The position numbers were made by a program, and so were the translations under genes. Of a DNA stretch of 64,000 nt, positions 1,001 to 11,527 are shown in pieces. Numbering within the stretch: position 1 is the stretch's first letter; each line of letters begins with the position of its first letter. The notes beneath the pieces were generated by a model. It made no database searches and was not told the DNA's origin. It saw nothing but the letters and a program-made list of their open reading frames with translations. The DNA comes from an archaeon (GTDB lineage: Archaea > Thermoproteota > Nitrososphaeria > Nitrososphaerales > Gagatemarchaeaceae). The stretch covers positions 1 to 64,000 of the forward strand of contig JAKAOG010000001.1 in NCBI GenBank assembly GCA_021823325.1. The letters run 5' to 3'.

Positions 1001-2044
1001 CTAGTCGCTCTTCAGTTTGTGGTTCAAGAATTCGGAGAGTTTCTGCAGCCCAACCTTCAGCGTCTTCTCATCCGCGGTGTAGCAGAGCCTGAAAGCCTTG
1101 GGCGCGCCGAAGAAATCCCCAGGTGTAACCAAGACCCCCGTCCTGTCAAAGAGTTCTTTCGCCAGGACCACCGAGCTTGGTCCTTTCTTGTAGCGGACAA
1201 GGCAGAAGGGAGTGACCCCTACCTCGGCGGAGACGCAACTTGTCTGGGCGAGGAACCTGCGGACGAGCCTTCTGTTTACCGAGACCAATTTCCGCGCACG
1301 CTCAACAAACCTCCGTCTGTTCTTGAGGACCTGGGTGGCGATCCATAGCGAGTATTCCGAATCGTGGCCGCTCACGGCCCACTTCGCGTACATCAGCTTC
1401 TGGGCTGAACGCCTGTCAGCCATCACCCATCCGACCCTGAGCCTCCCAAGGCCATAGAACTTTGTCATGGTGCTGCAGACAACCGCTCCGCGGATTGTTC
1501 CGAAGTTGGTCGCTGGAGAGCCGGGGAAGGAGAATTCCTTGTAGGTCTCATTGACGAAGACCAGCGCATCTTTCCCTGACGTGAGTTTGCTTGTCGCCTC
1601 TCCATCCGCCCGCTCCCCCGTTGGGTTGTTGGGGTCAGTGACGCCCAGAATCGTCTTCCCAGACCGGAGCGCGACGAGGTTGTTCGAGATGCCCATGCCG
1701 AGAGCCCGTGGAACCGTGAACATGGCAGGGTAGTTGGGTAGAGGGACTACCGCTCTCCGGCCCACTCCGAGTGTGGAGTAAATGAGGAAAATAGACTCCG
1801 AGGCCCCTGCAGTCGGCACGATATTCGCAGGTTCTACCCTGTATAGCCTCGCGACCGCCTCGGCAAACTCCTGCTCACGGAAGTGGTCGTTCTCGCTGGG
1901 CCCGTAGTCCTGATAGGAAGTGTCGATCCCCATCGTCGACAAGGCTGGCTCACCAAGGCCACTGGACGTGAGGTTGTATCTCGCCTTCGGCACCAGATCG
2001 AGCACCCAGCTAAATAATTCGTCTTCTTCAGGACGCAATGACAT
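1001..2044 (-). CDS. PLP-dependent aminotransferase, class I/II fold
   Basis: 347 residues from the ATG at 2044; a TTG at 2071 would add nine residues of poor character. Family hallmarks are visible: the substrate-side YQDYG segment, the cofactor-contacting TAGASESIF stretch, DPNNPTG (Asn that contacts PLP), NETYKEF, and STMTKFYGLGRLRVGW, in which the Lys is the probable Schiff-base residue followed by the conserved Arg. These proteins transfer amino groups between amino acids and 2-oxo acids. The substrate is not evident and there is no pathway partner next door. It converges on the small membrane-protein gene and lies just outside the tRNA-Phe island boundary. Confidence 0.85.
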   Translation of the reverse strand: MSLRPEEDELFSWVLDLVPKARYNLTSSGLGEPALSTMGIDTSYQDYGPSENDHFREQEFAEAVARLYRVEPANIVPTAGASESIFLIYSTLGVGRRAVVPLPNYPAMFTVPRALGMGISNNLVALRSGKTILGVTDPNNPTGERADGEATSKLTSGKDALVFVNETYKEFSFPGSPATNFGTIRGAVVCSTMTKFYGLGRLRVGWVMADRRSAQKLMYAKWAVSGHDSEYSLWIATQVLKNRRRFVERARKLVSVNRRLVRRFLAQTSCVSAEVGVTPFCLVRYKKGPSSVVLAKELFDRTGVLVTPGDFFGAPKAFRLCYTADEKTLKVGLQKLSEFLNHKLKSD

Positions 2045-2231
2045 CGAGGACCCGCGAGGCTCAGTTATCAACTACCTGCTGATGTCTCTGCGTGAGGTCG
2101 AGTGATGAGGATTACAAGGCCCGCGGAGAGGCTCGTATGTGCTCATGGGGGTATCACAAGGAACAAAGGAAGGCGAGCAACTCGGCCTTTTCTCATACAT
2201 TCGAGGACCACCAGCTCGGATGTGAAAGAAA

Positions 2232-2248
2232 TGCCGCGGGTCGGATTT
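2232..2248 (+). repeat. distal attachment-site copy (attL-like) of the tRNA-Phe 3' end
   Basis: The sequence tgccgcgggtcggattt is identical to positions 11528-11544. The bases on each side differ (a before and a after here; g before and g after in the tRNA). The copy begins exactly at the base corresponding to tRNA nucleotide 73, which argues against chance and for a duplicated integration core. Confidence 0.8.
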
Positions 2249-2347
2249 ATCACTACCTAGGTGGGTTCAAATCCACTCCAAGGTTAGTGGTAATCAGGTT
2301 ACTATGAGGGTTAGCGAGTTCGACGCTCCATATAGAGAGATTTAATA

Positions 2348-2710
2348 ATGAGTGACGAATGTCGAAATCGAAGGCTATTGCCAATCCAGGCGCTCAAGTT
2401 CATTGTCGACGGAACCGCGGAGCTGATGATGCATCCAGCCCGGTTCCAGATTCTGCAGTATTTGCGCGAGGCGGGGGAGCCAAGGTTCGTCGACCAGATT
2501 GCTAAAGCGAAGGGAATCCATCCTCGGATGGTTTCTCACCACCTTGACGTCCTCCAGGAGCAGGGGTTGATTGAGTGCAAGCACGAGCTGATGAAGGTTA
2601 ACGGATCCAACAGGGAGGTGGCCGTACGTTGGTCTTGGCCTACCAAGAAGGCTGACGAAGTCATTCAAGACATACTGGAGAGCACGGAGTTGAAGAAGCA
2701 TGAAGAATAG
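2348..2710 (+). CDS. ArsR-type winged-helix transcription regulator
   Basis: 120 residues. A winged helix spans about residues 25-85: an MMHPARFQILQYL helix, VDQIAKAKGIHPRMVSHHLDVLQEQGLIE as helix-turn-helix, then a wing with charged residues. No metal-binding cysteine pair is present, so a metal-sensing role is not supported. It is the first gene inside the island's left boundary and its 3' end overlaps the next gene (membrane M48 peptidase) by 11 nt, indicating translational coupling. A regulator/membrane-protease pair suggests control of the island, but that is inference. Confidence 0.8.
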   Translation: MSDECRNRRLLPIQALKFIVDGTAELMMHPARFQILQYLREAGEPRFVDQIAKAKGIHPRMVSHHLDVLQEQGLIECKHELMKVNGSNREVAVRWSWPTKKADEVIQDILESTELKKHEE

Positions 2711-3515
2711 CCTCGCAGCACTTGGCGTGGTCTGGGACTACATCTACGGGACTTTCAAGATACGGAGGATCCTGCTGCTCACGGTCGCTCTATTCAGCTG
2801 GGTCTTCACAATCCCTGTGCTGGTTGCATTGCCTGGATGGGCGAGAATTGATCTCATCTACATCTACGTCAGTATTGCATATATCACCGGGTTCTTCATG
2901 TATGGTGCATTCAAGCACCCTCTCAAGACGATATTCGCTTCGGTCTTTCTGGGGTGGCGGTACAAGTCGAGGGAGTTCACTCTAGAGGAGTACAGGACCT
3001 ACGGAGCGACAGAGATCGTCAACTCGATGGGGATTAAGAAGAGGGTCAGGGTGTACGTCACACCCAACCACTGGATCGAGGGCCCCTACACCAACGCCAC
3101 GAACAACAGGGTCTACATTCCTCTGAAATGGATGCAGAGGTTCCCACGCTTGGACATACGTGGTGTGCTCGGACATGAGATAGGACACATCAAGACCAAA
3201 GGGAAGTTCGTTCGAGACCTCGCGGCCGCAATTGGTGGCATTGGTGGTATGAGCTTTCTCCTCGGGACGTATTCGGTCAGCATAATCACCGTGACGATCT
3301 TCGAGTTCGCTCTGGCGTTCCTCGTGCTGACAGTCCTCTCCTGGAGGAACGAAGTACGAGCCGACCTTGAGGGAGCTAAAGTGACAGGCCCAGAGGGGCT
3401 GATCTCTGTGTTCGAGCAGCTGAGGGCAGAGGATCACAGGGATGACCCTTCAGAAACTCATCCATCCTTGAGCGGCAGGATTTCCCGGCTATCGCTCCTC
3501 CTGCCGATGTACTAA
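2700..3515 (+). CDS. membrane-bound M48-family (HtpX-like) zinc metallopeptidase
   Basis: 271 residues. Hydrophobic segments lie near residues 24-45 and 52-70, the catalytic domain near 95-165, and two further hydrophobic stretches near 172-213. The zincin motif is H159-E160-x-x-H163 (GHEIGH), and the third ligand is probably the Glu of NEVRAD (about residue 218), as in Ste24/HtpX proteases. The family degrades or processes membrane proteins at the cytoplasmic face. The start overlaps the HTH gene by 11 nt. A Bla/Mec-like sensing relay or control of a toxic partner is conceivable but not demonstrated. Confidence 0.82.
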   Translation: MKNSLAALGVVWDYIYGTFKIRRILLLTVALFSWVFTIPVLVALPGWARIDLIYIYVSIAYITGFFMYGAFKHPLKTIFASVFLGWRYKSREFTLEEYRTYGATEIVNSMGIKKRVRVYVTPNHWIEGPYTNATNNRVYIPLKWMQRFPRLDIRGVLGHEIGHIKTKGKFVRDLAAAIGGIGGMSFLLGTYSVSIITVTIFEFALAFLVLTVLSWRNEVRADLEGAKVTGPEGLISVFEQLRAEDHRDDPSETHPSLSGRISRLSLLLPMY

Positions 3516-3535
3516 ACCAGCAAGGGTGTCTATTG

Positions 3536-4303
3536 ATGGCAATTGAAGGAGCCGGGGCGTTCTTTGGGATGCTGGACCCGCTCAGGCTGGTCTACAAGTA
3601 TCTGAAGGAAGTCCAAGAGACCAGGGAGGTGAAGAAGCGGCTTGGTGACATACTAAAGTCACTTGATACATTCGAAAAATCAGGAGAAGCATCGAAAAGG
3701 GCTGGGAAGGCCCTCAGAGAGAAGGTCAAGACTCTTCGGCCGCCGATTACACTGCCAGAGCTGGTTGACATCATGAAGCTCTCCATCGAGTACAGTAACA
3801 ATTTCCAGTCGTTCCTTTCCAGCATCCGTGAATTCGGAAGAGAATGCCGGGGTCTGAACTCTGGCGACTTCGAGGCATTCATGCAGAAGGTGAAAACGCG
3901 GAAGCCCGACGTCTACGACATCATGAATTTCTTCGGAAGGAACTACAGTCCCGATAAGAGGACCCTCGACTTGACACGTCTGCCAATTCTGATCAGAGCG
4001 TATGGTACCAAAGCCGATTGGAAAGAAAGCAAGAAACTCTCGGAACAAGTGGCCGAGGGTAGAAGGGAAGTCGAGGATCTGATAGAGAAGGTGAAGGTCA
4101 TCAGGACGCAGCGAATTCCCTTCAAAGACAGGGCGTTGGCGCTTGCGTACATTCGTTCCTTCCAGAGACTTGGCAGAGAAGGAGGCCGTTTTGTGGTCTC
4201 GAAAAGCACCTTGGCCGATTTGAAACAAGCCTCTCCGTCGTGGTATGTGGAGCTCGTGGGCATGACTAGCCTTGTTAGGAAGTCACTGCCAAGGGGAATC
4301 TGA
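3536..4303 (+). CDS. unknown helical protein of the island
   Basis: 255 residues from ATG 3536 (a TTG lies immediately upstream at 3533). No recognised domain. The protein looks almost entirely alpha-helical, with a Lys/Glu-rich region at about 20-75 (YKYLKEVQETREVKKRLGDI) and a second coiled-coil-like stretch at about 160-195. It lacks membrane segments and cysteine clusters apart from one Cys. It follows the peptidase by 20 nt, so it may belong to the same transcript. It marks the point where sequence becomes visibly more AT-rich. No function assigned. Confidence 0.6.
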   Translation: MAIEGAGAFFGMLDPLRLVYKYLKEVQETREVKKRLGDILKSLDTFEKSGEASKRAGKALREKVKTLRPPITLPELVDIMKLSIEYSNNFQSFLSSIREFGRECRGLNSGDFEAFMQKVKTRKPDVYDIMNFFGRNYSPDKRTLDLTRLPILIRAYGTKADWKESKKLSEQVAEGRREVEDLIEKVKVIRTQRIPFKDRALALAYIRSFQRLGREGGRFVVSKSTLADLKQASPSWYVELVGMTSLVRKSLPRGI

Positions 4304-4434
4304 ATCCAAAGGCAGCACAGCGAACAGTTCTCCAACCGTTACGTTTTGATCTTAGGCTCCTTCACCAGTGCCGGAGAAAAGCCACGGACCTCAGCCTTGC
4401 TCCACCCGAGTTAAGCTTCAAGAGCCCCTCCCAG

Positions 4435-5163
4435 ATGGCAAGAGTCTCCACAGAGCTGTGGACCGCCAAGAACTTCTATTGCGCCTCATGCGGATTTGGG
4501 TTATCTTCCTACCCGCCGGGGACGAAGGTTTACGATTTCTACTCTCAGGACTGCAACGAAAAGTTCCAGCTAAAATCGTCGGCATCTTCATTCTCGGGTT
4601 CAATCCTCGGCTCCGAGTACGGGACAACGATTAGGAGCATTATGGAATCGGTGCACCCATCCTTGATCTTGCTTCAATATGACCGTGCAAGGTGGACCGT
4701 CCAGAACCTCTCCTTGATTCATCGGGCGTGCATAACATCGAGTTGCATCATACCGAGGCGGCCCTTGTCAGCGACTGCGAGAAGAGCTGGTTGGCAGGGC
4801 TGCATCATCTCTATCGCGTCTATTCCAGAAATCGGCAGAATTCCTGTTGTATTCAAAGGCCGGGTTAGACGTAAGGAGTCGGTCCTTTCACAGTGGACGC
4901 GCAGCGAGAAGCTCCTCCAAGTCGAACCTGAAAGAAGGGGGTGGCTCGCAGATGTGCTGAGCTGCGTCGAGCGCCTCTATTCCTCCTTCACTATCCAGAA
5001 TATGTATTCTTTCGAGGCGGAGCTCTCAGCCAAGCATCCTAACAACCGCAACGTCAGGGCCAAAATCAGACAGCAACTGCAAATTCTCCGCGATATGGGG
5101 TTGGTAGAATTCGTCGGCCCCGGGGTCTATCGCCAGTTCAAAAGGGCGAACGAATCGCTTTGA
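4435..5163 (+). CDS. DpnI-family restriction endonuclease homologue (methyl-directed GATC nuclease), possibly inactive
   Basis: 242 residues, collinear with Streptococcus DpnI over its length. Shared blocks include YCxxCG (C16, C19), the RRAGWxGC block (116-123) and IRQQLQILRD in the C-terminal winged helix (about 211-220). DpnI cuts GATC when adenine is methylated. Differences: the DpnI catalytic D-ELK is D34...Q45-L-K47 here, so Glu is replaced by Gln, and the first Cys of the second zinc pair is Ser37 while C40 remains. Homology to DpnI continues about 15 residues upstream of the ATG (ELSFKSPSQ precedes it), but no ATG, GTG or TTG occurs in that frame back to a stop at 4276. Hence the start may be non-standard or the gene N-terminally eroded. 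An AT-rich box at 4411-4418 would fit a leaderless ATG at 4435. Confidence 0.85.
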   Translation: MARVSTELWTAKNFYCASCGFGLSSYPPGTKVYDFYSQDCNEKFQLKSSASSFSGSILGSEYGTTIRSIMESVHPSLILLQYDRARWTVQNLSLIHRACITSSCIIPRRPLSATARRAGWQGCIISIASIPEIGRIPVVFKGRVRRKESVLSQWTRSEKLLQVEPERRGWLADVLSCVERLYSSFTIQNMYSFEAELSAKHPNNRNVRAKIRQQLQILRDMGLVEFVGPGVYRQFKRANESL

Positions 5164-5252
5164 CTAGAAGAATCGAGCACGCCAATCTCGAGGCCGTGTT
5201 GCTTCACTCGGCAAATGTCTAAATCACAACTTGGTCGAATCGTCGCGCTGTA

Positions 5253-7418
5253 ATGCCTCAGGTATACAGGCTACCTACGGTAAGCAAGTTCGACGCGCGG
5301 GAGGTCCTAACCGACGACGAGGCAAGAGAGTTAGAACAAACCGGTTATGTCAGGCGACCGAATCGACGTCGAGGGAGGATCGTACTTCGAAAGGAGAAAG
5401 AAAAATGGGTCATCTTTGAGGATGAAGCCAAGGCCTTCTTGACTGTGCTCGAATTTACAGATGTGGGCGCGGGATACCTGGGCGAGAATCAGATCGACGC
5501 GTACGGGGGGTTCGATCGGACTTTCGTGGTTTTCGACTGCGCGACACGCGAGGAACCGGGATTGGCATCGCTAAGGAACAAGATCCTGACATTTGCTGGT
5601 AAGAAGACAGCCATCAAGAGAGCTGTGAGGAGGCAATATCCACGATACACCGAAGTGAAGTTCGTAATAGCCACACGAGACATCGATGTGGCAAGAGATG
5701 ATTTGGGACTCGCCGCTCAGAGGGGAATTGAACTGTGGAGCGAGCGCCAGTTCGAAATGTACCGGTCCCTATACAAACAGGTTGGAACTCTCGTAAGGTA
5801 TTGGCTATTGAAGGAACTTGGCGCCAGTAAGAAAAGAATTGTCGATGGAGGAGATGCGTACTATAAGCCATGGGCATTTGAGGTCGTTTCTCGTGGCGAA
5901 TCACCATACTATCTATTTCTGATTGATGCGGATTCTCTGACACGAATTGGATACGTCTCTCGTCTCTTGCCTGGTGCAAAGAATTCCTATCAGAGAGTAC
6001 TGTTTCAGAGTAAGATCAACTCCATCGCAAGATACATCGAAGATGGAGGAACCTTTCAGAATAACGCCATTGTAAGTCTCGAACCCGGAGCCAGATTCGT
6101 TCCGAGTAGGACGATCTCTCCTGGAATTCGAGCTGGCACAATAAGGATTCCAAAGTACTACGCCACGGCTTGGATAATCGACGGGCAGCATCGAGTGTTT
6201 GGGTATAGGAAGGCTGATCCAGCTAACATGGGGAAATTCATGCCAGTCTCTGCTTTCATCAACATGCGAGGTGGGAAGCAAATCGAATTATACACCACGA
6301 TCAACAGAAATCAGAAGCCCGTCGATGCGAACGACATATGGTACCTCTATCCTGTGACAGTCCCCGGTTCTTACTATGCGTGGGTTTCGTCAATCGTTCA
6401 AGAGTTGAATGCGGCTGGTCCGCTTAGAGACCTCATATTCGTACCAGGAGTGAGTTCGAGACTCAAGTCAGAGTATGCCATGAAGCTCGCAAGCGTTTGT
6501 GACAGTCTGGAACAGACCACTTTGTGGGAGTTCTTAGCTGGCCGATCAGCCAACTATCCACCTCAATCGGTTCAGATTTCAGTCAGCCTCATCAATGAAT
6601 ACTTCTCGTTCGTCAATGCGATCGTCACGCCAATAGGAAGTCACTGGCTTGACAATTTCTTTCACACAAATAGTGGGGCCGACGTAGCGCTTAGAATCCT
6701 GGGAGATGGACTACAGTGGGGCCGTGGATATTTCCGGATAACCAGCCCACGCGAAGTGCTCCGCAAAATCCTTCCGATACTCAAGGATCCACTGGTGAAG
6801 TATTGCACAATCAATTCCTCTACGATTGGTGACCTCATCAAGGAATCCATCTCTTACGGAGGTCGAGAGAGGATTTCAGCAAGAATTGGTGTAGTGATTT
6901 CGCAAAGCGCGAGAGGTTGGGGGGGCGTAAAGGTTGACAACCTGTTGCATCAGCCGGAATTCGTCATCATCTCAGAATTTGAAACTGAATTGCGAAGAGC
7001 GATTGTAGATGCTTTGGGAGCAGTGGGTGGTGATTGGTGGGCAGCGAGAGTGCCTGAGGATGTTCGTACTGGAGCGGAGGGACTACGCACCCGGGAAGTG
7101 GACGCGGGGCTCTTACCGAGGGCCGGCTTGATTGACTACGTTGAATTCGAAGACTACAAGAAGATAATACTGAAGAGAGACAATTGGCGGGAAGTATTCA
7201 CCTCGATATTTGCACAAGAAGACTTCATCTCAAGCAGGCTTGCGGATTTATCTGCTATCAGGAATGTCGTCATGCATAGCGGAAGATCGCTGACCGACGA
7301 CGAGAAGGCCAAGCTTGAAATGTTCACTAGAGAAGTTTTGAACAAGATTCGACGCTGGCGGGAAAGACATGCAGCCAACAGTCCTGGGAATGTTACGTCG
7401 AGCAATGACAGTACCTAA
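5253..7418 (+). CDS. DGQHR-domain (DndB-like) protein with degenerate nuclease-like N-domain and C-terminal HEPN
   Basis: 721 residues. The N-terminal part (about 60-170) resembles the PD-(D/E)xK-like domain often fused to DGQHR proteins, but where family members show ECK this protein has FDCAT (D95), so the catalytic Lys seems lost. The central domain carries the signature IIDGQHRVFGY (D310-R314) and INRNQKPV (350-357), as in DndB, the regulator of DNA phosphorothioation systems. The C-terminus resembles a Swt1-like HEPN domain with RNVVMH (R670-H675), matching the RNxxxH ribonuclease motif. The gene starts 89 nt after the DpnI homologue on the same strand. No dnd modification genes are in the window, so the partner could be the local methylation systems. 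Function is inferred to be defence. Confidence 0.75.
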   Translation: MPQVYRLPTVSKFDAREVLTDDEARELEQTGYVRRPNRRRGRIVLRKEKEKWVIFEDEAKAFLTVLEFTDVGAGYLGENQIDAYGGFDRTFVVFDCATREEPGLASLRNKILTFAGKKTAIKRAVRRQYPRYTEVKFVIATRDIDVARDDLGLAAQRGIELWSERQFEMYRSLYKQVGTLVRYWLLKELGASKKRIVDGGDAYYKPWAFEVVSRGESPYYLFLIDADSLTRIGYVSRLLPGAKNSYQRVLFQSKINSIARYIEDGGTFQNNAIVSLEPGARFVPSRTISPGIRAGTIRIPKYYATAWIIDGQHRVFGYRKADPANMGKFMPVSAFINMRGGKQIELYTTINRNQKPVDANDIWYLYPVTVPGSYYAWVSSIVQELNAAGPLRDLIFVPGVSSRLKSEYAMKLASVCDSLEQTTLWEFLAGRSANYPPQSVQISVSLINEYFSFVNAIVTPIGSHWLDNFFHTNSGADVALRILGDGLQWGRGYFRITSPREVLRKILPILKDPLVKYCTINSSTIGDLIKESISYGGRERISARIGVVISQSARGWGGVKVDNLLHQPEFVIISEFETELRRAIVDALGAVGGDWWAARVPEDVRTGAEGLRTREVDAGLLPRAGLIDYVEFEDYKKIILKRDNWREVFTSIFAQEDFISSRLADLSAIRNVVMHSGRSLTDDEKAKLEMFTREVLNKIRRWRERHAANSPGNVTSSNDST

Positions 7419-7566
7419 CGGGTCTCCTGTGCGCAATTCATCGAGAGAGTACTCCGTACTAACTGAATAGCCCAGTTCGGTGATAGTAGTAATGGAATAT
7501 TCGCAGAATGATTCCGTGTTCTTCACTTGCTAGAATATTGTCAAAGCGGACGCAAACAGCCAGTTA

Positions 7567-8046
7567 TTGGCAGAGCCTGAAGGAGTCGTCTCTTGGGACG
7601 CAAATGCACTAAGAGAAGCTATGCGATTGAGCGAGGCCGAAGTCAGAGCATATTTTACAGACGGCCGCCGAATCTCCTTCATACTGGAACGACGAATAAA
7701 CCGCGAATTCGTTCATGGAACCCTCGCTCCCAGCGAGGGTGATAGATTTGACATAATAGACTCATCTGGTGATAAGTGGGAGGTCCGAAGCATAACGCCT
7801 GCCACAGGGGTCTATTTCTGCCCAAGCAACATGGTAGGATCGTCACGCCACTTCAGCGAACCTGGTTTTCTGAGGAAGCTCGACGAGACGGAGGGCTTCC
7901 TACTGACTGACATTGAATCATTCCCAAACGTTCCATTCTGGAGAGTGACTTCGCAACAGGTTCGGTTCTGGTGGGGAAGGCGGATGCTCGGCGCTTCCAC
8001 GAGGATATCCCGAACTACTGCATTGGAACTGCTTAGAAAGCTTTGA
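7567..8046 (+). CDS. putative restriction endonuclease, paralogue 1
   Basis: 159 residues from TTG 7567; the start is supported because it gives the same N-terminal length as the paralogue at 9144-9617. About half of the residues are identical between the two copies, including YFTDGRR-SFILERR, LAPSEG, GDKWEVRSIT, MVGS-R-F, DIESFP-VPFW and VRxWW. An N-terminal helix-turn-helix-like part (LREAMRLSEAEVRAYF) precedes a core with acidic residues and E-V-R (FDIIDSSGDKWEVRS). The core could be a diverged PD-(D/E)xK site with Arg for Lys. No named family was recognised. The nuclease call rests on pairing with a DNA methyltransferase, with which it converges (55 nt apart). Confidence 0.6.
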   Translation: MAEPEGVVSWDANALREAMRLSEAEVRAYFTDGRRISFILERRINREFVHGTLAPSEGDRFDIIDSSGDKWEVRSITPATGVYFCPSNMVGSSRHFSEPGFLRKLDETEGFLLTDIESFPNVPFWRVTSQQVRFWWGRRMLGASTRISRTTALELLRKL

Positions 8047-8101
8047 CCTTTTCTCCTACAGACTGCAATCTGAGTGTGTAGATACACTGCCTCACAAGGA
8101 G

Positions 8102-9064
8102 CTAATCTGTGCCTTGTGAGTTCCCAAGCGGCTCGGTTGAACTCTTGAATGCCTTTACCCTCTCGCTCGCCTCCTTGAGATAGGCCTCATCTACATCGAA
8201 ACCTATACACGGCTTGCGAACCTTCAGGCTGGCCAAGGCGGTAGTTCCTATTCCCACGAATGGGTCAAGGACCAATCGTGTTCTATCGAGGCCGTGGACT
8301 TTGATGCACATTTCTGGTAGAGAGACAGGAAAGGTGGATGGGTGCGGCCTTTGCGTCTCCCGGTCCCAGATTGTCTCGTAGGGAATGAACCATGTGTTTC
8401 CCCTGTCCCTCAGATCTCTCTGAGCCTTCTTCCACCTCCCAATATTGGACTTGTCTTGATATGGGACGCCTACAGCCAACCGATCCAGTTCTACATCACC
8501 ATCCTTGGTGAAGTGGAATATGTACTCATGAGCATCGTTCAGGAAACGCTTCCCTCCTATTGGCTTGTAATGTCCGACGGCGATATCCCCTTTGATGTTC
8601 TCATACTTCCCAGCATCCCTCTTTGGGATGGCGATTGACTTGATCCAGTGAATTGTGTTCTGAAGTGCGAAGGTCTTCCTCATCCGTTCCGCTATCTCGA
8701 GTGGTATCCAAGGGTCCTTTAGCGTCCCTCCGACGTTGAGGAAGAAAGACCCTTTGTCGGAGAGGATTCGCCTGACCGCGACGCCCACACGTTCCATCCA
8801 ATCAAGGTAGTCCTGTTTGGGGCGGGTGTCCTCATACGCATTGTACTTGACTCCTATGTTGTAAGGTGGCGATGTGACAACCACGTCGACGCTACCCGGT
8901 TGAAGGACCGCTTGCATCCCCTTCAAGCAATCTTCTTTGTAGAGCCTTACGCCGTTTAGTTCGAAGTATGGCGTCAGTTGTGTCTGCTTGATACTCGGCT
9001 GATCCTGGGACGCTCCCATGACCACAGGGGACTCAGCGCCCATGTCCGCTCTCGACACTACCAA
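8102..9064 (-). CDS. beta-class site-specific DNA methyltransferase (probably N4-cytosine)
   Basis: 320 residues from TTG 9064; ATG at 9043 is an equally good start. Motif IV (TSPPY, residues 64-68) precedes motif I (DPFVGIGTT, about 267-275), the order of beta-class amino-methyltransferases. SPPY rather than DPPY favours N4-methylcytosine as product. The middle (about 140-230) is the probable target-recognition region. The enzyme uses S-adenosylmethionine to protect host DNA from a cognate nuclease. It lies 79 nt downstream of nuclease paralogue 2 and converges with nuclease paralogue 1, so either could be its partner. Recognition sequence unknown. Confidence 0.85.
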
Positions 9065-9143
9065 CCACCTTTTCTTGTCTTTGATTCCGCTCCTATTTCA
9101 ATGGTAGCAGAGTGTTGGGCAGGCGAGCATCGATGACTCTTGG

Positions 9144-9617
9144 CTATCGTAAGAGGTCGAGGATCTTTTCTCGTGAAACCTTGGTGGTCGTTCCCAATTG
9201 GCCGGCTTCCCACCACTTCCTGACCTGGTCTGAGCTGACGATCCAAAACGGAACGTCGGGAAACGATTCGACATCTGATAATATGAAACCTTTCACACCT
9301 TTCAGTTTATCCAAGAAGCCCTTCTCCTTGAAACTTCTTCCAGACCCCACCATATAGCTTGGGCTGAAATAGATGCCTCCCCGAGTGATGCTCCTGACCT
9401 CCCACTTATCCCCGTTCGAGTCGATCAGGTCATACCCTGCCCCCTCACTCGGAGCTAGTCGCCCCTTCAGAACCTCGTATGCGAGCCGTCTTTCTAGAAT
9501 GAAAGAGACACGCCGACCATCAGTGAAATAATTCCTCACATCGCTCTCAGTTATCTTCAGGGCCTTCGCAATCTCAGCGACGTTCCAGCTCAGCGTACCA
9601 GCTGGTTTCGGCGTCAA
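9144..9617 (-). CDS. putative restriction endonuclease, paralogue 2
   Basis: 157 residues from ATG. Clearly paralogous to the protein at 7567-8046 with one short gap. The N-terminal HTH-like segment is IAKALKITESDVRNYF, and the candidate active-site block is YDLIDSNGDKWEVRS (D63, D66, E73, R75). It lies 27 nt downstream of the methyltransferase at 9645-10934 and 79 nt upstream of the methyltransferase at 8102-9064, so it is sandwiched in an M-R-M order on one strand. No database family recognised. A regulator (C-protein) role was considered, but the protein is longer than typical C-proteins and its conserved core is outside the HTH-like part. Confidence 0.6.
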   Translation of the reverse strand: MTPKPAGTLSWNVAEIAKALKITESDVRNYFTDGRRVSFILERRLAYEVLKGRLAPSEGAGYDLIDSNGDKWEVRSITRGGIYFSPSYMVGSGRSFKEKGFLDKLKGVKGFILSDVESFPDVPFWIVSSDQVRKWWEAGQLGTTTKVSREKILDLLR

Positions 9618-9644
9618 TCGGCACGACGCCGCTCAACAAGTTAC

Positions 9645-10934
9645 TTATCTCTTCTGAAAGACCAGAATGTTCTCTTTCCGCATGACGTTGTAAAGCCCAA
9701 AGATGATCTTGTCTATGTTGTTCGCAAGCCTGAACCCCACCTTCTCAGCTTCTTTGACTGTGAACTGTACTGTCTCCACCTCCGCGCCATCAAAAGTAGC
9801 GTTACCGATTACAATTGCGGCCGACCTCCCATTCCGCAGGACCCTGTACATCTCCGCGATGCTCTCTTTCATGTCCTGTTCATAGAGACCGATTCTATCC
9901 CTCGGCGGACCTCGAACCCCAATCAACCTCTCCCTCATGCTCTCCACATCATGCCCAAGTTCCTTCAGCGAATGCTTGTCGTTCTCGACGTAATCGAGGG
10001 CAATGGAGTACGGAGGCGATGTCACAATACCGTCAACACTTTCATCCTGTATGGGCAGGTTCCGTGCATCACCTTCTCGTATGTCTATGCGGCCGAGTGC
10101 CAATCCGAGCTTATCGCGTACTGTGACGAAGTCTCCGACTGACTGAATCATCGCTTGGAGGTTCTCAGAGAATGACTTGTAGAAGTCCCTGTGTCGGCGG
10201 GCACTGTCGCTCACAGAGACTAGCTTCGCCATCTCGAAGAAGTTCCTTGCCTTCTCGTTCTGTATCGATTTGATGGCACCCACGAGGTCGCTCTGTTCTC
10301 CATAGAGAGGCGATGGAGCACTTTTCGGGACGGCATCCTCAGCCTGTTTGATTACGTCCAAGGCGCCAATCGATTCGGTCTTCACTTTGGTCTGAAGAAC
10401 GCAAAGGGGGGAGGCGTCTATTCCAATGCAATTGATGCCCAGGAGTTGAGCCTCGAGTGCAGTTGTGCCGCTTCCCACGAAGGGGTCCAGCACAGTTTCC
10501 CCTTCACCGAGACCAAGGTAGTTTAGCAACGCTCTGACCATCTGAGGGTGAAACTTCCCCTTGTATGGGTAAATCCAGTGCGTTAGGTACTGGTTGACTG
10601 AATTGGTTCTGTTGTACTGTAGGATTTTGAAATAATCCGTCGCAGTTCCGTTCACTGAGTGAAAGTAGGCAAGGCGTTTGAGAAGCTGTTTTTCGTCATT
10701 GATCTTCAGTAGATCGAACTTTCGCAGGCCATTGGTGATCTTGAATTCCGCTCCGAGAGCTTGGAGCTCGAGCTCTGCGAGAGCGAGTTCGTAGATGAAT
10801 TGGACGTTATCGAGCAGGACTATCCCTTGAGATTCTAAAGATGCCGCGTTTTTGTAAGCCCAGGTCGTAGAGAGTTCCTCAGCGCGTTCGATCATCCTTG
10901 TGGATTTGAAGCTTCCTTGTTCTGTTGGCTCCAC
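9645..10934 (-). CDS. site-specific DNA methyltransferase, SPPY type, motif order I-IV
   Basis: 429 residues from GTG 10934. An N-terminal helical extension of about 120 residues leads to KGKFHPQMVRALL, then motif I DPFVGSGTT (150-158), an insert of about 140 residues (probable target recognition), and motif IV TSPPY (305-309). The order I-to-IV differs from the neighbour at 8102-9064, so the two methyltransferases are not recent duplicates even though their nucleases are. SPPY suggests N4-cytosine methylation. A palindromic TATA-like box CCTTTTAAGG lies about 25 nt before the GTG, fitting leaderless transcription of an M-R-M operon. Confidence 0.85.
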   Translation of the reverse strand: MEPTEQGSFKSTRMIERAEELSTTWAYKNAASLESQGIVLLDNVQFIYELALAELELQALGAEFKITNGLRKFDLLKINDEKQLLKRLAYFHSVNGTATDYFKILQYNRTNSVNQYLTHWIYPYKGKFHPQMVRALLNYLGLGEGETVLDPFVGSGTTALEAQLLGINCIGIDASPLCVLQTKVKTESIGALDVIKQAEDAVPKSAPSPLYGEQSDLVGAIKSIQNEKARNFFEMAKLVSVSDSARRHRDFYKSFSENLQAMIQSVGDFVTVRDKLGLALGRIDIREGDARNLPIQDESVDGIVTSPPYSIALDYVENDKHSLKELGHDVESMRERLIGVRGPPRDRIGLYEQDMKESIAEMYRVLRNGRSAAIVIGNATFDGAEVETVQFTVKEAEKVGFRLANNIDKIIFGLYNVMRKENILVFQKR

Positions 10935-10953
10935 ATCTACAAATCTCTTCGGG

Positions 10954-10963
10954 CCTTTTAAGG
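10954..10963 (-). promoter_or_regulatory. TATA-like promoter of the methyltransferase-nuclease operon
   Basis: The self-complementary element ccttttaagg is centred about 25 nt upstream of the GTG at 10934, the usual archaeal box A distance for a leaderless message. This placement supports the GTG start. Confidence 0.5.
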
Positions 10964-11164
10964 TCCCCTGAGCAAGCGTCGGTTCTGAGGCTGGCTTTCA
11001 TCTTCCAGGACAGCGATGAGGTATTGTCCTTGCACTGAAAGGGCTCCAAAATCTACTGTAATTTCGTCAGAACAAATGGCTGGAATGGTGATCCAGAACT
11101 TGACGCAATTACGCAGTATAGAGGCCTCAAAAAGTTCTTAACGTCGCACTCTATTTTTAGATTT

Positions 11165-11380
11165 ATGCCTGTTAGCATTTACCGTCTCAGCCCGGGGAAA
11201 CTCTCTATGGTACTGAGACGCTCGAGAAATGGTGCAATCTGCTACACATGCGGTAAGCAACTCAAACTCAAGGATGTCATAGTGAGCAACATCTCACGAC
11301 GTAATAGCAGGAATTATCGACATGCAAAATGCGCAATTCGGACGGGCATGGTTGACGAAGCCGAATTGGATTTGCTGTGA
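11165..11380 (+). CDS. small zinc-finger-like protein (CxxC...HxxC)
   Basis: 71 residues. CYTCGK (a CxxC knuckle near residues 25-28) is followed about 25 residues later by YRHAKC, giving a C-x2-C ... H-x2-C pattern, within a basic protein. Similar short proteins with an RRSxxG...CxxCG...HxxC layout occur in archaea, but no function is established. An AT-rich stretch (ctatttttagattt) ends right before the ATG. It is the last gene before the tRNA-Phe end of the island, on the strand opposite the methyltransferase operon. Role unknown; DNA or RNA binding is possible. Confidence 0.6.
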   Translation: MPVSIYRLSPGKLSMVLRRSRNGAICYTCGKQLKLKDVIVSNISRRNSRNYRHAKCAIRTGMVDEAELDLL

Positions 11381-11527
11381 ATAGGTATGAGGCGCCTCTT
11401 ACCCTGAAACGCGAGCCGGGAGTCAACAGAACCTATCTTGGGAACTTTCAAAGTCCTATCTGATTGTGCCGAAGTCACCCAGTTCTCGTATTGAACAGAC
11501 CCGACATTCATTCTCCCGGTTTGGGCG

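Follow-up and report, generated by a model that had tools for sequence, protein, structure and literature searches.

A REase-like–DGQHR–HEPN protein from an uncultured archaeon is a member of a widespread, still unnamed family of probably antiviral enzymes

What is the role of an archaeal protein in which a nuclease-like region, a DGQHR domain and a HEPN motif follow one another in a single chain, directly downstream of a gene for a methyl-directed nuclease? The protein is encoded in the window, by which we mean the whole stretch of 64,000 nucleotides that was analysed; it comes from an uncultured archaeon (a Thaumarchaeota MAG) and its reading frame is unbroken over 721 residues. A preliminary description had divided it into these three parts, and profile searches together with the structure model recognised all of them (Table 1). 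A search with the profile of the full 721-residue protein gave no sequence relatives in the PDB. As detailed below, the protein is a member of a widespread, still unnamed family of enzymes that are probably antiviral.

Table 1. Positions in the window of the REase-like–DGQHR–HEPN gene, of its domains and motifs and of the neighbouring restriction genes.
Feature	Position	Strand	Basis
DpnI-family methyl-directed nuclease	4435..5163	+	89 bp upstream; PF06044 1e-50, PF17726 2e-29
REase-like–DGQHR–HEPN protein, 721 aa	5253..7418	+	ORF; full model pLDDT 88.7, pTM 0.78; 75 aligned homologues
PD-(D/E)xK-like nuclease domain, residues ~51-188	5403..5816	+	Foldseek and weak Pfam matches in relatives
Asp82, first acidic residue of nuclease motif	5496..5498	+	D in 80/84 homologues
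Asp95-Cys96-Ala97, (D/E)xK position without Lys	5535..5543	+	Alignment, 84 homologues
Lys110, proposed relocated catalytic lysine, start of next helix	5580..5582	+	Column 110 and K[ILV] counts
DGQHR (ParB/Srx-type) domain, residues ~205-422	5865..6518	+	TIGR03187 at 214-422; PF14072
YQR motif, residues 246-248	5988..5996	+	Invariant, 86/86
DGQHR motif, residues 310-314	6180..6194	+	Invariant, 86/86
IN..Q motif, residues 350-354	6300..6314	+	I350 and N351 86/86, Q354 85/86
Helical linker between DGQHR and HEPN, residues ~423-561	6519..6935	+	DSSP of model
Swt1-type HEPN domain, residues 562-712	6936..7388	+	PF18731, PDC-M34B, model pLDDT 95.7
R670-N-V-V-M-H675, HEPN catalytic motif (R-x4-H)	7260..7277	+	R and H invariant, 75 homologues
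Type II REase-like protein 1	7567-8046	+	PADLOC PDLC03550
Methyltransferase between the REase-like paralogues	8102-9064	opposite	
Type II REase-like protein 2	9144-9617	-	PADLOC PDLC03550

The same three-domain architecture is present in more than 80 bacterial and archaeal loci from many phyla, and a unique one-off fusion is thus ruled out. A scan of GTDB genomes gave 183 relatives; the analysis covered the best 80 of them, the window's own locus included, and because only these were kept, the family counts lean towards window-like members. Nearly all relatives among the best 80 of 183 are 650–810 residues long and share the domain order. The counts given below refer to 86 alignment rows for the DGQHR motifs, 84 for the nuclease motif, 75 full-length proteins for the HEPN domain and 87 loci for the neighbours. 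Extra viral scans brought no new independent full-length family members. On the tree the window protein sits on a long branch, and within its genus it turned up in a single genome. A shorter protein (L009, genome G003), encoded in a related archaeon that belongs to the same order, consists of the REase domain, with ECK, and the DGQHR domain without HEPN, next door to a D12 methyltransferase gene, and is a possible minimal version of the system.

Looking at the central domain, both profiles were matched above their curated cut-offs (TIGR03187, 95.8 bits against 58.85; PF14072, 39.4 bits against 29.1), and the QR, DGQHR and F/Y-xxIN motifs of the family are present and hardly vary among the homologues (Table 1), so that the assignment to DGQHR proteins is borne out. 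DGQHR is related to the DUF262 domain of GmrS, and an NTP-binding site has been predicted in its ParB/Srx fold (PMC4619093). The match to the DndB/DGQHR family could also point to a protein that regulates DNA phosphorothioation as DndB does and carries accessory domains besides. DndB and DpdB indeed have the DGQHR domain in common with the window protein; however, they are proteins of about 350 residues, and the scores were far below the cut-offs of their equivalog models (11.9 of 328 bits for the DndB model TIGR03233, 64.3 of 300 bits for the DpdB model NF041060). As previously described for the window, no dnd modification genes accompany the protein; neither DndC nor DndD was found in its 86%-complete genome, and the partners seen elsewhere in the family are adenine methyltransferases. 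A role as a phosphorothioation regulator was rejected on the equivalog scores and the missing dndC and dndD, and we regard this reading as very improbable.

The C-terminal domain scored just below the cut-off of PF18731 HEPN_Swt1 (24.0 bits against 27.5, E 5e-5). The same profile matched 31 of the 75 homologous domains at E <= 0.01, one of which (L017) exceeded the cut-off with 30.7 bits; the PADLOC profile PDC-M34B matched the window domain at E 2e-18, and related plasmid proteins bear the NCBI label 'Swt1 family HEPN'. Modelled in isolation, the domain forms a helical bundle. The Arg and His of the RNVVMH motif never vary in the full-length homologues, so that the preliminary description stands up to the check it had set for itself. 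Rows without this pair are few; some of them are truncated proteins or appear frameshifted. A Foldseek search with the HEPN model gave no significant match (the best was a HepT toxin, E 0.45), and no convincing PDB relative of the domain was found by sequence. In one locus (L056) SLFN_AlbA_2 (Schlafen AlbA_2) stands in place of HEPN, which identifies the C-terminus as an effector that can be swapped. For HEPN domains of restriction systems, a role as suicide or backup effectors has been proposed (PMC3710099). The window's genome encodes a second Swt1-type HEPN protein (L002, G000:C7:122636-122992) with no DGQHR in the same open frame.

The N-terminal domain was more difficult to assign. When the full model was compared with the PDB using Foldseek, the top matches of this region included Cdn1, AF1548, Card1 and McrBC with a probability of ~1 for the best of them but E-values of only 0.02–0.4 (0.02–0.04 for Cdn1 and AF1548), and weak Hjc, Card1_endonuc and Mrr_cat matches were obtained in relatives. 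These data support a PD-(D/E)xK-like fold with moderate confidence. The classical D...(D/E)xK triad is incomplete in the window protein, which has both acidic residues and an Ala at position 97. Among the 84 homologues Cys96 is found in all, an acidic residue at position 95 in 76 and Lys97 in 56; of the 28 rows without Lys97, 25 keep D82 and 22 an acidic residue at 95. By parsimony on the tree, the K97 state changes at least 11 times.

We then considered the position of the missing lysine. The MAFFT alignment shows a Lys in column 110 for 11 of the 28 K97-less rows but for none of the 56 K97 rows. A gap-free count, that of a Lys followed at once by a hydrophobic residue and placed 13–17 residues after Cys96, gave K[ILV] where the next helix begins in 22/28 K97-less rows against 1/56 K97 rows (Fisher 8e-14, a value that flatters the pattern because the test was devised after the pattern had been noticed), and phylogenetically independent pairs gave 5:0 (p 0.06). 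A family member with Phe at position 97 (G672) likewise has a Lys at the place equivalent to Lys110, and two sister proteins show both arrangements (QCK...NEI in L041, QCR...EKI in L045). Six rows have neither lysine (L060, L062, L065, L086, L100 and L109), three of them with Arg97. A comparable rearrangement is known from the COG4636 (Uma2-type) PD-EXX-K nucleases, where the lysine is moved from the strand to the next helix in the model of all3650 (E111...K127, to be compared with D95...K110 here) and in the crystal structure of Tt1808 (EXR118...K130) (PMC551604); COG4636 is a separate family, whereas classical and relocated forms alternate within the REase-DGQHR-HEPN family. With this precedent from the COG4636 nucleases, and as judged from the alignments, the N-domain seems more likely to be an active nuclease whose lysine has been relocated than a relic. 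The ExK lysine is absent, as the preliminary description had it, but 'decayed' is probably the wrong word for a domain with Lys110 on the helix and a relocation that recurs family-wide, and DNA cleavage is likely to be a second effector activity.

Which genes accompany the family? In 39 of the 87 loci a gene for a D12-class N6-adenine methyltransferase (PF02086) accompanies the REase-DGQHR-HEPN gene; mostly the two are immediate neighbours on the same strand that overlap or sit within a few bases of each other, and they are therefore probably translationally coupled. Genes with methyltransferase motifs amount to 46/129 at ±1, then to 6/212, 4/259 (4–6) and 3/376 (beyond). MT-A70 enzymes, present in seven loci, replace D12 in some, and in a K97-less clade the place of the methyltransferase is taken by genes for a radical-SAM protein and a HATPase. 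The association of K97 with a D12 partner (Fisher 4e-7) and of K97-less proteins with radical SAM/HATPase (~1e-6) is a lead only, because independent pairs fell short of significance. Two of the loci, L019 on plasmid pNL1 (7785-16235) and L020 (4011-14399), combine the REase-DGQHR-HEPN protein with a short DGQHR protein and radical-SAM, HATPase and PIN-like proteins, and this recurrent cluster has the look of a system for DNA modification or defence that has not been described before. Beside the G672 homologue (L136, 1274-4667) lie a different second DGQHR protein of 577 aa, a 181-aa unknown protein and a PIN protein.

In the window's clade other partners appear. DpnI is found in three loci, namely the window, L026 (immediately adjacent) and L024 (four genes away); an EVE domain is fused in L039 and adjacent in L082, and HARE-HTH is fused in L030. 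Together with the exchange of HEPN for AlbA_2 mentioned above, the EVE and HARE-HTH cases are modular swaps around the core. The pairing with a methyl-directed nuclease thus holds for the window, where the DpnI-family gene lies directly upstream, but it is a minor one (3/87 loci), the usual partner being a DNA adenine methyltransferase. The link is not obligatory either, since same-genus genomes carry DpnI without the REase-DGQHR-HEPN gene. The window's DpnI-family protein matches the DpnI structure 4esj at E 2e-48, and it shares with the other DpnI proteins of the genus (L155, L156 and L157) FQLK for FELK in the active site and Ser for one zinc Cys, so that a decay of DpnI confined to the window's genome is ruled out. 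In three genomes (G493, G525 and G719) an unknown gene of 176–191 aa precedes DpnI.

On the other side of the gene, two methyltransferase genes are located 0.7 and 2.2 kb downstream on the opposite strand, beside the Type II REase-like genes. The two REase-like paralogues are 57% identical and flank one of the methyltransferases, so that a restriction gene has been duplicated on either side of it. The G+C content is ~0.51 over about 2.0–11.4 kb (2000-11400) as compared with ~0.60 on either side. With this base composition and with DpnI, two REase-like genes and two methyltransferases, the segment is probably a horizontally acquired restriction island; it also contains an ArsR-type regulator, an M48 peptidase and an unknown 256-aa protein (3533-4303).

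Taken together, these results lead us to propose, with an even chance of being right, that the protein is a single-chain, NTP-gated, modification-directed dual nuclease (DNase and RNase), probably abortive. The DGQHR domain and the N-domain would together recognise foreign DNA from the way it is modified; NTP bound or hydrolysed at DGQHR, as homology to the DUF262 of GmrS/SspE type suggests, would release both effectors. One would be a PD-(D/E)xK-type DNase with Asp82, Asp95 and the relocated Lys110; the other, a HEPN RNase with R670 and H675, would presumably act on host or viral RNA and so arrest growth. In the main clades the self-mark would come from the co-encoded D12 adenine methyltransferase, following a restriction-modification logic. 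In the window's clade the partner more often reads or cuts DNA that is modified (DpnI, EVE, HARE-HTH), which suggests a modification-directed, Type IV-like logic. The partners of its own clade thus favour modified DNA as the putative trigger of the window protein, and the rest of the family would favour unmodified DNA, as in restriction-modification. More tentatively, this may be restriction-like immunity of a new class, in which one chain reads methylation via a DGQHR NTPase and fires the DNase and the HEPN RNase, usually from a two-gene D12 operon, with a DNase lysine that switched repeatedly between strand and helix. The earlier idea of a modification sensor wired to a HEPN RNase gains from the invariant DGQHR and HEPN motifs and from the DpnI, EVE, HARE-HTH and D12 partners, but it left out what is probably a second effector in the N-domain, and its RNase and abortive steps are predictions.

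Two other explanations have to be weighed against the dual nuclease. If the N-domain were catalytically dead and served for DNA binding only, HEPN would be the sole effector; this would fit a K97 state that changes so often while the HEPN R/H pair never changes in full-length members, and also the six homologues with neither lysine. We nevertheless find it rather unlikely, given the 22 of 28 K97-less members with a helix Lys placed like the proposed catalytic Lys of COG4636 and the retention of D82 and of the acidic residue at 95 in most of these rows. The other is plain restriction-modification, in which unmethylated DNA is attacked and the methyltransferase protects self, a downstream methyltransferase taking the D12 role in the window. 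The dominance of D12 or MT-A70 operons in the family speaks for it, as do the methyltransferase genes downstream in the window; but these are on the opposite strand beside Type II REase-like genes, the 86%-complete genome yielded no D12 gene, and the DpnI, EVE and HARE partners of the clade suggest that modified DNA is being read, so that we consider it unlikely.

How does the proposed dual nuclease compare with known systems? In SspE a DUF262 domain of the ParB/Srx type is followed by a long helical linker and, at the C-terminus, by a nuclease, and its action is modification-directed. GmrSD (DUF262-DUF1524) resembles the window protein in the same respects, with a DGQHR/DUF262 domain of the ParB/Srx type, a nuclease at the C-terminus beyond a long helical linker, and modification-directed action (PMC4619093). 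In contrast, the C-terminal nuclease of GmrSD and SspE is HNH where it is HEPN here, and a PD-(D/E)xK-like domain is added here at the N-terminus. The Type-1 BR/Hma system, DUF499-HEPN with an N6-methyltransferase, also has a Swt1-type HEPN in a restriction-modification-like operon with an adenine methyltransferase, but it contains AAA+ ATPase and helicase parts instead of a single REase-DGQHR-HEPN chain (PMC12839542). The closest precedent is a Swt1-like HEPN fused to ParB, tabulated in 2013 with Saro_3948 as example and described as 'mostly active' (Anantharaman et al. 2013, PMC3710099 Table 1); as here, a HEPN of the same family is fused to a ParB-type domain, but the table names no REase-like N-domain, D12 operon or lysine relocation. 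Protein P0002 of Novosphingobium aromaticivorans pNL1 has the same architecture as the window protein and is probably, not certainly, Saro_3948. The Swt1-HEPN/ParB fusion is thus already known. Among the papers open to full-text search we found none that contains both DGQHR and HEPN, and no earlier account, for this family, of the D12 operon or the relocated lysine.

If the proposal is true, the proteins of a widespread unnamed family of bacteria and archaea each unite the restriction of DNA with a growth arrest that acts through RNA, and a neighbour gene provides the methylation mark. DGQHR proteins, so far known mainly from phosphorothioation, would gain a role in connection with ordinary adenine methylation that can be tested, and the family would offer a natural series for the study of the movement of an active-site lysine, for example in the sisters L041 and L045.
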